A stretch of DNA of 51,371 bases, from NCBI GenBank assembly GCA_013204385.1, contig JABMNY010000014.1:1-51371 (forward strand). Reading direction: 5' to 3'. Shown here piece after piece: positions 10,969 through 34,561 of this stretch. Every line of letters begins with the position of its first letter. The stretch's first letter is position 1. The position numbers and the translations under genes were made by a program. The notes under the pieces are model-generated. The model was not told the DNA's origin. It saw nothing but the letters and a program-made list of their open reading frames with translations, and searched no databases. Origin of the DNA: Candidatus Uhrbacteria bacterium. Lineage in GTDB: Bacteria; Patescibacteriota; Patescibacteriia; UBA9934; GWF2-40-263.

Positions 10969-11388
10969 ATGATGCATACTACACACAACGAAGAAGAAAC
11001 GAAAAAAGTCGCTGAAGCATTTGCAATGACTTTGAAAGGGGGGGAGGTTATTTTTCTTTTTGGGGATTTGGGAATGGGCAAGACGACATTCGTTCGAGGG
11101 GCTGCAGAGTATTTTGGTTTTCTTGATCCTGTGCGAAGTCCTTCCTTTACAATTGTGAATCGCTATCTAATCAATACTCCCGGTTTGAGGCAGATCCTGC
11201 ATGTCGATTTTTACCGCATTGAGGACCCGTCCGAAATTTGGCCATTGGCTCTAGAGGAAGAGGTGGGGCAGCCTGACACAATGACGTTTATCGAGTGGCC
11301 AGAAAAGGCAGAGGGGAATACACACCCGGCAACGCACAAGATCTATTTTACTTCCACAGATGGTGTTCATCATATCTCGATTCAATAA
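10969..11388 (+). CDS. tsaE: tRNA threonylcarbamoyladenosine biosynthesis ATPase TsaE
   Basis: 139 aa from the ATG at 10969, one base after the tsaD stop. P-loop GDLGMGKTTF near residues 33-42, then RSPSFTIVNRY and HVDFYRI motifs typical of TsaE, ending with FIEWPEKAE. It powers the TsaD-TsaB-TsaE complex. tsaB is not in the window. A second ATG follows at once (MMHTTHNEEE), so the exact first Met is uncertain by one residue. Convergent with the candidate ncRNA on the minus strand. Confidence 0.95.
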   Translation: MMHTTHNEEETKKVAEAFAMTLKGGEVIFLFGDLGMGKTTFVRGAAEYFGFLDPVRSPSFTIVNRYLINTPGLRQILHVDFYRIEDPSEIWPLALEEEVGQPDTMTFIEWPEKAEGNTHPATHKIYFTSTDGVHHISIQ

Positions 11389-11691
11389 AAAGACCACCCC
11401 GATCGTGTGGGGTGGTTGGGTGATGTTTCCATCAAGGCGTTGTCCGCCTTCCGTTTCATTCACTCATGTTTGAGTCCTTTGCCCGTTTTGGGTGGGTGAA
11501 GGTGGTGGTCTGCCAGAATGGCCCCCGGTTGGGGCTAGCTATTCTGGAGGACGGTGGAGACGATGTTGTTGCTCGGCGCGTGAGCAGTGGCATCGTTGGT
11601 GGTCGCGGTGCGACCTGCGGGAGAGGTGTGGTTGTGCTGTTTTCGCATCCGGGTTCCTTGTTGGTGGATGTCGGCTCAGATGAGTCAACGC
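11388..11691 (-). ncRNA. Candidate structured ncRNA of about 300 nt
   Basis: The GC-rich gap between tsaE and pilB has a minus-strand promoter (TTGCCT, 17, TAGAGT) and a minus-strand terminator (ACCACCCC/GGGGTGGT then TTTTTATT). Between them are several hairpins read on the minus strand: GGTCGC/GCGACC with 3-nt loop; an ACGATG...CATCGT stem enclosing TGCTC/GAGCA; CAGAAT...ATTCTG enclosing GCCCC/GGGGC; GGCG/CGCC; GATG-GAAA-CATC. Linkers are rich in C and A. I see no RNase P, tmRNA, SRP or 6S signature. No open frame with a Shine-Dalgarno or leaderless start fits. An 81-codon plus-strand frame (11466-11711) is the coding alternative. Confidence 0.55.
11390..11420 (-). terminator. Terminator of candidate ncRNA (also between convergent genes)
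   Basis: Stem ACCACCCC / GGGGTGGT around 11398-11421. The T-rich tract is on the minus-strand 3' side (AAAAA at 11389-11394 on plus), so it works best for the minus strand. Confidence 0.75.
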
Positions 11692-11696
11692 AAAAT

Positions 11697-11725
11697 ACTC
11701 TAGCAAAATAATACATGTGAGGCAA
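11697..11725 (-). promoter_or_regulatory. Promoter of candidate ncRNA
   Basis: On the minus strand TTGCCT (11720-11725), 17-bp spacer, TAGAGT (11697-11702). Predicted start near 11690. Confidence 0.6.
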
Positions 11726-11744: not shown

Positions 11745-11776
11745 AAAAAGAACGAGCTAAAAAGCTCGTTCTTTTG
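11745..11776. terminator. pilB terminator
   Basis: Perfect 13-bp stem AAAAGAACGAGCT / AGCTCGTTCTTTT with a 4-nt A loop. It lies just past the pilB stop (minus strand) and is nearly symmetric. Confidence 0.88.
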
Positions 11777-11787
11777 TATTTATTGTA

Positions 11788-13521
11788 CTATCCCGCGACT
11801 CGCTGGATTTCTTCAACGGTCGTCATTCCGTCGAGAACCTTGAGAACACCATCTTGTTGCATCGTGGTCATTCCTTGTTGTTTTGCGAGTTCACGGACTT
11901 GATATTCGGAAATAGATTCAGAAAGGGCGGCTTTGATTTCTTCACTCATGACAAGAATCTCGTAGATTCCGACTCGTCCTTTATATCCGGTAGCGTTACA
12001 AACGGTACATCCTTTTCCTTTAAAGAATTTCCATTCTGATTCAGGGGCAACGACTTCACCCGAAGCTTCTGGAATTTCTGCAGAAACTTTTTTTACAAAG
12101 GCGAGTTGATCAGCTTCTAGAACAATTTCTTCTTTACATGCTTCACAAATTTTTCGAGTCAAACGCTGTCCGATAATCGCATTGAGAGAAGGGGCGAGGA
12201 GGAACGGCTTAACCCCCATAGAGAGGAATCGCGGAATGGCCCCCGCTGCGTCATTTGTATGGAGCGTAGAGAGCATGAGGTGGCCTGTGAGGGCTGCATT
12301 GATCGCAACCTCAGCTGTTTCCAGGTCACGGATTTCTCCAACCATGACAATGTCTGGATCTTGTCGCAAAATGGAACGAAGTCCGCCTGCAAACGTGTAG
12401 TTTTTAGAATGATCAATCTGAGACTGGTTTATCCCTTCGAGTTTATATTCGATTGGATCTTCTAAGGTAATGATCTTTACGTCGGATGTATTGAGTTTTT
12501 TCAAAATAGCGTAGAGGGTGGTGGTTTTACCAGATCCTGTTGGACCGGTTGTAATAATCATGCCGTGGGGCTTTGCGATCTCCTTTGCGAGCTTCGCTTC
12601 AGCAAGAGGTCGATATCCAAGCTGTCCAAATTCTACATTGATTGAACTTGGTTTCAGGAGTCGCATGACGATTGATTCTCCCCAGGTCGTTGGAATAGTT
12701 GAGACACGCACATCGGTGTCACCCGCTTTGAGGAAGATGGTAAAACGTCCATCTTGTGGTCTATCGGTTACATTGATTTTAAGTCCTGAAATGAGCTTGA
12801 TACGCGCGACAATTTTCTTCCAAAAATCATGTGGGATTATTGCCACTTCTTGGAGGACGCCATCAATTCTGAATCGGACCACAATTTTGTCTTCCTCAGC
12901 TTCTACGTGAACATCACTTGTATTAAATTGGAGGGCAGCTGCCATGACGATTGTAATGATGTCTGTGATGCTGGCATGGTCCATGACTTTTTGGACATCT
13001 GTATAGATCTTGAGCTGGCTTTTAAATTTTTCAAGTTCTTCATCGGTTACCTGAACACCCTTTACGATCACTTGAATCTTTGGAAGGGTCTCGTACGCCT
13101 TGATACTTACTCGCAGGCTCTCTTCTGAGATTTGATAGATTCCGCCATTGGCTTTATGACGCTCCTGGAGTTCGAAGAGAAGATCTTTTACGTTTTGATC
13201 TGCTGGGTGTAAAGAAGCAAGCCGAATCTCTGATCCTGAAAACAAGAAGCATACCGTTTTTAGTGACTCCGCACGTTCTTTTGGAATAAGTCTAAGCGCT
13301 TCAGGAGAGATAGGGAACCCTTTGAGATTTACGTAAGGAACTCCAAGAGTGTTCGCGGCGGATTCCGCCTCTGTTTCATTTTCTTTCAAGCGAACTTGCA
13401 CCATCTTCTCATCGAACTTTTCAATCGTGGTCCGTTCACCTGCATGTGGAGCAGTGTTTGAGGTGGATCCTGCTCCTGTATATTTCAGGAGGTCTTCAAT
13501 GCTTTGAATATCATTACTCAT
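11788..13521 (-). CDS. pilB: Type IV pilus / type II secretion assembly ATPase (PilB/GspE family)
   Basis: 577 aa. An N-terminal GspE domain is followed by the AAA-like secretion ATPase: Walker A GPTGSGKT at residues 326-333, then LEDPIEY, the Walker B-region IVMVGEIRDLETAE and LSTLHTNDAA. A CxxC...CxxC zinc cluster near the C-terminus (ICEAC, CTVC) is typical. It energises pilus extension, and with the split comEC genes at 48.5-50.8 kb it suggests a DNA-uptake pilus. No other pil genes are nearby. Own terminator downstream. No clear Shine-Dalgarno. Confidence 0.93.
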   Translation of the reverse strand: MSNDIQSIEDLLKYTGAGSTSNTAPHAGERTTIEKFDEKMVQVRLKENETEAESAANTLGVPYVNLKGFPISPEALRLIPKERAESLKTVCFLFSGSEIRLASLHPADQNVKDLLFELQERHKANGGIYQISEESLRVSIKAYETLPKIQVIVKGVQVTDEELEKFKSQLKIYTDVQKVMDHASITDIITIVMAAALQFNTSDVHVEAEEDKIVVRFRIDGVLQEVAIIPHDFWKKIVARIKLISGLKINVTDRPQDGRFTIFLKAGDTDVRVSTIPTTWGESIVMRLLKPSSINVEFGQLGYRPLAEAKLAKEIAKPHGMIITTGPTGSGKTTTLYAILKKLNTSDVKIITLEDPIEYKLEGINQSQIDHSKNYTFAGGLRSILRQDPDIVMVGEIRDLETAEVAINAALTGHLMLSTLHTNDAAGAIPRFLSMGVKPFLLAPSLNAIIGQRLTRKICEACKEEIVLEADQLAFVKKVSAEIPEASGEVVAPESEWKFFKGKGCTVCNATGYKGRVGIYEILVMSEEIKAALSESISEYQVRELAKQQGMTTMQQDGVLKVLDGMTTVEEIQRVAG

Positions 13522-25086: not shown

Positions 25087-25130
25087 AGTGTAACGGAAAA
25101 GAAAACACTCCGTCAAAGACGAAGTGCTTT
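25087..25130 (-). promoter_or_regulatory. Promoter of NlpC/P60 gene overlapping a terminator hairpin
   Basis: On the minus strand TTGACG (25111-25116), 18-bp spacer, TACACT (25087-25092). The -35 sits inside a hairpin (25106-25114 with 25118-25126) followed by TTTTC, which looks like a terminator for upstream minus-strand transcription. Confidence 0.65.
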
Positions 25131-25131
25131 C

Positions 25132-25152
25132 TGGTGCATCGGGTGGGGTTCG
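25132..25152 (-). repeat. Copy of the tRNA-Lys 3' end (21 bp, direct repeat)
   Basis: Exact copy of 25311-25331, which is the CCA end, acceptor 3' strand and half of the T arm of tRNA-Lys. The 5' part of a tRNA is absent, so this is not a functional gene. It resembles an attachment-site repeat. Confidence 0.75.
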
Positions 25153-25272
25153 CCTTCACCTCTCACCGCTGCAGCGGTTCGGGTGAAGGTCCGGGTCTCG
25201 CCATGCTGTCTGCTGACAGCATAAGGCTCCGACCGTTCTCATCCCACGCAAGCCAACCGCTTGGCTTGCTAC
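25153..25272. other. Three consecutive perfect hairpins between tRNA-Lys repeats
   Basis: Stem 1: CCTTCACC (25153-25160) / GGTGAAGG (25182-25189) enclosing the palindrome ACCGCTGCAGCGGT. Stem 2: ATGCTGTC (25203-25210) / GACAGCAT (25215-25222). Stem 3: CAAGCCAA (25249-25256) / TTGGCTTG (25261-25268). No gene is supported; an open frame on the minus strand runs through the tRNA and is spurious. Confidence 0.7.
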
Positions 25273-25277
25273 CCGAC

Positions 25278-25310
25278 ACAAAAAAACCCCAGCAGAGCTG
25301 AGATTTTTTT
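25278..25310 (-). terminator. tRNA-Lys terminator
   Basis: On the minus strand CTCAGC / GCTGGG with a TCT loop, then T7. Confidence 0.75.
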
Positions 25311-25385
25311 TGGTGCATCGGGTGGGGTTCGAACCCACGGCCAAGAGATTAAGAGTCTCCTGCTCTACCACTGAGCTACCGATGC
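25311..25385 (-). tRNA. tRNA-Lys (anticodon CTT)
   Basis: Cloverleaf on the minus strand: acceptor GCATCGG / CCGATGC, D arm GCTCAGTGGTAGAGC, anticodon loop CTCTTAA with CTT, T arm GTGGGTTCGAACCCCAC, discriminator A and encoded CCA (25311-25313). It reads AAG codons. It is followed by its own terminator, and a 21-bp copy of its 3' end lies about 160 bp further on. Confidence 0.94.
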
Positions 25386-33672: not shown

Positions 33673-33774
33673 ATGAATGCAAATTGCTTCCACAAAGAAA
33701 TGATTCTCCTCGCCGGAGTAGATTACACTCCAGCCGCTTTTTGTTTCTCGGGTCGCAATGTCTTGATTTGGTAA
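33673..33774 (+). CDS. Possible 33-codon leaderless small protein
   Basis: The frame begins MNANCFHKEM and ends RNVLIW. It has no Shine-Dalgarno, but a TATGCT box lies 8 nt before the ATG, the same geometry as the leaderless core genes, and a terminator follows at 33800. The unit is therefore promoter, 33 codons, terminator. Not recognised: two Cys and a hydrophobic C-terminal half. It could equally be a small RNA of about 150 nt with a chance open frame. Confidence 0.4.
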   Translation: MNANCFHKEMILLAGVDYTPAAFCFSGRNVLIW

Positions 33775-33799
33775 TTTCACCAAAAAAATAAGGACAAAG

Positions 33800-33826
33800 A
33801 CAACCCGGGAAACCGGGTTGTTTTAA
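33800..33826 (+). terminator. Terminator of the short unit
   Basis: Perfect 9-bp stem ACAACCCGG / CCGGGTTGT with GAAA loop, then TTTAATT. Confidence 0.88.
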
Positions 33827-33894
33827 TTCAATCGACTTGAAATGGATGTGATCTTACATCCAGTTGTTTCGAGTCATCTCACAACGGAGAGTTT

Positions 33895-34561
33895 ATGTCC
33901 GCTACGCGTACGTACTATGTGTTCACAGCGTTCATTTATATTGGGCTTGGAGCAACCGTCACAGCCTACACGCCGTTCTTGCAATCGATCGGTCTAAGCC
34001 TTTCACAGATTGCTCTCGTGAATGCGATCTTCTGGAGCGTCATCATTCTCTCAGAGCTTCCAACCGGTATGCTTGCTGACGGCCGATCGCGTGCGTACTC
34101 ACTGAAACTTGGAGGCACTTTTGGCCGCTGAACGATTGAGTGAAGATCATGGAATTGAGGCACGGGTCATCAACTGTCACACCATCAAACCCCTCGACGA
34201 AAAGATGATCGTACTTTCGATCGCCCTTGCTGGGGCGGGGCTTGTCGGAGTTGCGGTGGCACCTCAACTTCTCTTTGCCATGCCTGCGCTCGTGGTGCAT
34301 GAGATTGGACGTGGATTTTTCCAACCGCTCACAGATGCATTCGTTCAGCATCGCATTCACTCAAGCTACCGCGCGACGTTCGGCTCCCTTCAATCCTTTT
34401 TGGGACGCATCGGCTTTGCGATTGTCCCGTTTGTTGTATGGATGTTCATTCAAGGTAAGCCGAACACACCCGCAACGATCTCACAGGTCTGGATCGTTTG
34501 TGGAAGCGCCCTCCTCTTGGGTGCCATGCTTCTGTGGGTTACTCGACCACGCTCAGACTAA
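33895..34561 (+). pseudogene. Broken MFS transporter with transketolase-like insert
   Basis: From the ATG at 33895 (GGAGAG upstream) the first 75 residues are an MFS N-terminus (two helices, then LPTGMLADGRSRAYSLKLGG), ending at a TGA at 34129-34131. A +1 frame open from 34109 first encodes EALLAAERLSEDHGIEARV and then INCHTIKPLDEKMI, which resembles the C-terminal domain of transketolase, and from about 34213 continues as the last helices of an MFS carrier. About 200 residues of transporter are missing. It is a chimera by deletion and insertion, or an assembly error. A leader hairpin TGGATGT/ACATCCA lies at 33843-33862. Confidence 0.7.

Follow-up and report, generated by a model that had tools for sequence, protein, structure and literature searches.

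Here we report that the gap between tsaE and a pilB-like gene in a Candidatus Uhrbacteria genome plausibly holds an orphan small RNA gene, species-specific and carried on the minus strand, a reading to which we assign roughly even chances. The window, the whole stretch of 51,371 nt that was analysed, is contig C4 of this genome (G000), whose assembly comprises 1.05 Mb in 48 contigs and is 97% complete. The two flanking genes are convergent: tsaE (10972-11388, plus strand) scores over the family cut-off of NCBIfam TIGR00150, and the type IV pilus assembly ATPase gene (11788-13521, minus strand) has TIGR02538 as its best match, under the curated cut-off. A bidirectional pilB/tsaE terminator, AAAAGAACGAGCT-AAAA-AGCTCGTTCTTTT (11746-11775, both strands), has its counterpart in the nearest species, G024, and forms the boundary of the element while lying outside it. 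The stretch is distinctive in composition: its GC richness, remarked on in an earlier note on this DNA, amounts to 0.55 against 0.46 window-wide, and its 250-nt GC peak is the fourth highest among 114 gaps; furthermore, the tsaE-pilB gap has the top A+C skew among 177 intergenic gaps of at least 150 nt, taken from 1.03 Mb of the genome with a crude ORF caller.

The main evidence lies in the computed fold. On the minus strand, the predicted RNA of about 302 nt (11389-11690) has a folding energy of -105.9 kcal/mol against -75.1 ± 5.1 for dinucleotide shuffles, and an ensemble diversity of 0.057 per nt against 0.201 ± 0.052; in 300 shuffles, neither value was reached. These numbers describe a fold that is both stable and well defined on the strand presumed to be transcribed, as looked for in a stand-alone sRNA gene; its z-score is about -5 to -6.7. 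For the core alone, z is -5.85 on the minus strand and -3.16 on the plus strand. The plus-strand fold is also poorly defined (diversity 0.165 per nt, equally low in 17/120 shuffles). The difference between the strands favours the minus strand as the one that would give the RNA, with the caveat that the A/C linkers, which are G/U-rich when read on the opposite strand, add to the asymmetry by themselves.

In its predicted anatomy, the minus-strand element consists of about eight short hairpins set on A/C-rich linkers, with a terminator at the 3' end, which bears out the earlier count of at least five hairpins separated by CA-rich linkers. A core domain of 234 nt (11457-11690, minus strand) is closed by a split 14-bp helix (11690-11675 with 11474-11457; pair probabilities 0.94-0.98) that begins about seven bases 3' of the promoter-like -10; a 5'-end closing helix of at least 14 pairs arose in 3/300 shuffles. 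Within this core, which contains several short hairpins, three of them with most of their pairs near a probability of 1, lie GGUCGC-ACC-GCGACC (11601-11615; 0.98-1.00), a hairpin with a CCAC/ACAA internal loop and an ACGCGCC apical loop (11560-11596; 0.89-1.00), and the longest hairpin, CCAGAAU...AUUCUGG, which has a C4/G4 apical stem and corresponds to inverted repeat I2 (11508-11552; 0.59-1.00), all on the minus strand. Two hairpins follow on the 3' side (11422-11450, minus strand; 0.64-0.99), AAGGCG-GACAA-CGCCUU and GAUG-GAAA-CAUC, the latter with a GNRA tetraloop. Unpaired positions are A or C in 86% of cases, the longest unpaired linker being AAAACAGCACAACCACACCUCUCC, and only one of the 82 pairs is G-U, a count equally low in 5/300 shuffles.

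Putative signals for transcription bracket this fold. Upstream, a promoter-like TTGCCT (11725-11720), a 17-nt spacer and an extended -10, TGC-TAGAGT (-10 at 11702-11697), span 11697-11725 on the minus strand and match 8/12 consensus positions plus the TGn. The site is thus present where the earlier note had placed a promoter, but it is weaker than was stated there, falling below the 9/12 threshold of a stricter scan, and its score including the extended -10 is equalled in 11% of 110-nt intergenic stretches. At the other end, the T-tailed terminator that had been described is indeed found on the same strand, as looked for in a stand-alone sRNA gene: ACCACCCC-(8)-GGGGTGGT-CTTTTT (11416 to 11393), with the tail CTTTTTATTG, occupies 11388-11416 with an 8-bp stem holding 6 GC pairs, and its T tract overlaps the tsaE stop. 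Since this terminator is the second on the minus strand, some 330 nt beyond that of pilB itself, it suggests that transcription initiates somewhere between the two. We infer a minus-strand RNA that would start near 11690, downstream of the pilB terminator, from the modest extended -10 promoter and would end at its own intrinsic terminator, next to where tsaE stops, for a length of about 302 nt. Such an RNA would form a single domain shut by the 14-bp helix, with short hairpins on unpaired A/C linkers, followed by two small hairpins and the terminator. Because of this anatomy, a trans-acting RNA seems most likely, in which the unpaired A/C linkers may act as a contact surface that pairs with or holds a partner RNA or protein. 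Tested for pairing with gene starts and ribosome-binding sites, the linkers showed no excess over shuffled linkers (best 2/40); a role as an anti-Shine-Dalgarno sponge or regulator is accordingly unsupported, no linker standing clearly beyond shuffles, and a trans-acting role would call for specific targets or a partner protein.

Searches for relatives covered genomes, mobile DNA and RNA families. No blastn relative of the element was found in 43 family genomes, 73 order genomes or 381 genomes sampled across the class, nor in 50,697 phage and 72,556 plasmid records; the other five genomes of its genus gave no match anywhere, and exact-pattern scans of viral contigs found none. Apart from the element itself, blastn gave only short matches at chance level, among them 22 nt within a sugar-nucleotidyltransferase-like gene of G002 and 39 nt in a plasmid (E 0.3). 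A covariance model built from the single element sequence entered twice (R1) returned nothing convincing in the order, its matches having E 0.2-0.6 per genome and the better one being full of broken pairs. The literature retrieved consisted of general papers on ncRNA discovery, none about this lineage. No search yielded a relative; the lack of covariation reflects missing homologs, not stems that failed such a test, and nothing indicates that selection acts on the fold. With neither a DNA relative nor a convincing R1 match, the element appears private to the species. It is also single copy in its genome (blastn and R1, 1.03 Mb), which does not fit a repeated or mobile element. The earlier proposal that the minus strand encodes an unannotated structured RNA of about 300 nt is reasonable, given the strand-asymmetric, unusually well-defined fold, the closing helix at its predicted start and its own terminator; the further suggestion of a new RNA family of this lineage fails, because neither the genus nor the family, order or class sample yielded a second member, and the element alone does not define a family.

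The most serious competitor is that the stretch yields no product and is spacer DNA rich in hairpins, either neutral or recently acquired, at a variable tsaE-pilB site where relatives carry different inserts; we consider this possible, though distinctly less probable than an RNA gene. The lack of a homolog agrees with it, as does the variability of the gap, for which alignment of syntenic regions had been advised: in G024, whose PilB is 88% identical, the entire gap measures 71 nt and holds only the shared terminator, leaving no room for the element, and elsewhere the gap is 14-54 nt in several genomes and 0.5-1.4 kb of unrelated content in others. Intergenic DNA of the host genome is, moreover, strongly structured in general (mean z -2.5 in 230-nt windows), with many windows at z -8 to -20, and the element ranks only 53rd of 496 intergenic windows by fold z. 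The strongest windows include long palindromes, stretches around tRNA genes and long but imperfect hairpins; many of the top hairpins are long palindromes, whereas the element, terminator excluded, contains no uninterrupted helix longer than 7 bp. Its strand asymmetry and the well-definedness of its ensemble are likewise atypical of such spacer DNA, the core being among the best-defined 2.2% of the same 496 windows.

Several of these other structured regions may be recorded in their own right. Long imperfect hairpins occupy one 230-nt window each at L072:5853-6082, L110:16989-17218, L061:553-782, L100:15767-15996 and L085:6994-7223 (z -8 to -20). Palindromes of the form AACCAGGTCGG...CCGACCTGGTT recur in L108, L111, L120 and others of the same genome, with 17 motif matches genome-wide, and a block with CCTAAAAGAATATGAGA occurs twice in L108. 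On contig C18, a 616-nt convergent gap between two terminator-like hairpins (L086:7999-8614) is predicted on either strand to form several hairpins in a fairly well-defined fold, and no Rfam family matches it at gathering. In the window itself, the gaps at 25117-25313, directly beside a tRNA gene, and 33727-33956 also fold strongly.

Two readings on the plus strand are each improbable. In one, the element would be a structured 3' UTR of tsaE, or insulation in which the left hairpin keeps antisense transcription out of tsaE and the remainder is filler. The mRNA of tsaE might extend across the element, since the terminator on the plus strand, which has a clear T tract, lies at 11746-11775, yet the fold on that strand is the poorly defined one described above, and relatives manage without the element. 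The other, to which we give a similarly small chance, is an orphan protein gene of 81 codons (11466-11711), beginning 77 nt after tsaE. Its hexamer score of 0.17 is borderline, close to the 5th percentile for genuine genes of the genome while exceeding 95% of wrong frames, so that the earlier verdict that no coding frame fits was too strong. Still, no ribosome-binding site is visible before the ATG at 11466, and the product has no tblastn relative in 73 order genomes, genome contigs, viral contigs or plasmids and no match in Pfam or PDB. Minus-strand frames of the element score as non-coding.

Gaps at the same position in other genomes hold varied content. The 498-nt gap of G030 combines the terminator of pilB with a promoter-like TTGAAA/16/TATACT, an A/C-rich stretch of about 310 nt and, close to where tsaE stops, a further terminator, and by eye it resembles the element in layout, similar length, hairpins and an ACGCG loop. 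As a homolog it is rejected: structure-aware alignment gives z 0.3, equalled by 54/160 shuffles, its own fold is ordinary and poorly defined, and R1 does not find it, making it an analogous position at most. That the two represent a class of fast-evolving RNA genes in the slot downstream of pilB across genera, with the fold kept, the sequence lost and a common plan of pilB terminator, promoter, A/C-rich RNA of about 300 nt and terminator at the tsaE stop, is the least probable of the readings considered here. In G026, the 1386-nt gap (L005) contains a GC-rich unit of about 1.1 kb on the plus strand, which carries a promoter-like site (TTGACA...TATCTT), a strong terminator and three or four 'AAAGGAGG...ATG'-like repeats; it has no Rfam match and may represent one large RNA or several short ORFs in a row. 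In other genera (L016, L018, L019, L025), the gap holds two genes with similar products of about 187 and 105 residues, the shorter with cysteine pairs like those of a zinc ribbon, a content not seen in the tsaE-pilB gaps of the genus studied here.

Taken together, an orphan sRNA gene is favoured by the fold beyond shuffles and its well-definedness, the strand asymmetry, the closing helix at the predicted start, the second terminator, the GC peak and the single G-U pair; against it stand the lack of relatives, the moderate promoter, the rank of its fold z and the absence of excess linker pairing. If transcribed, it would add a further species-specific sRNA to a reduced genome of about 1 Mb with room for few regulators, suggesting that reduced genomes still gain private RNA genes.

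Among known RNAs, RNase P RNA and tmRNA are multi-hairpin molecules closed by a long helix, and the element has both the multi-hairpin form and the long closing helix in common with them. It is not either of them in disguise, as both are located elsewhere in the genome and were found in 6/6 genomes of the genus; consistent with the earlier observation of no known-RNA signature, the element matches no Rfam family at gathering or permissive thresholds, these two included (listed matches E 2.5-8.6, far below gathering). For SRP RNA, the small bacterial model (RF00169), the only one applied, had no match in any of the six genus genomes. The element is a long, GC-rich, structured gap in a genome of lower GC, a single sequence without comparative support. 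From the general class of bacterial trans-acting sRNAs that are encoded between genes and end in an intrinsic terminator it differs in that no target or homolog was found; it is like them in its promoter-like site, its predicted discrete unit of about 300 nt, its paired 5' end and its terminator hairpin.
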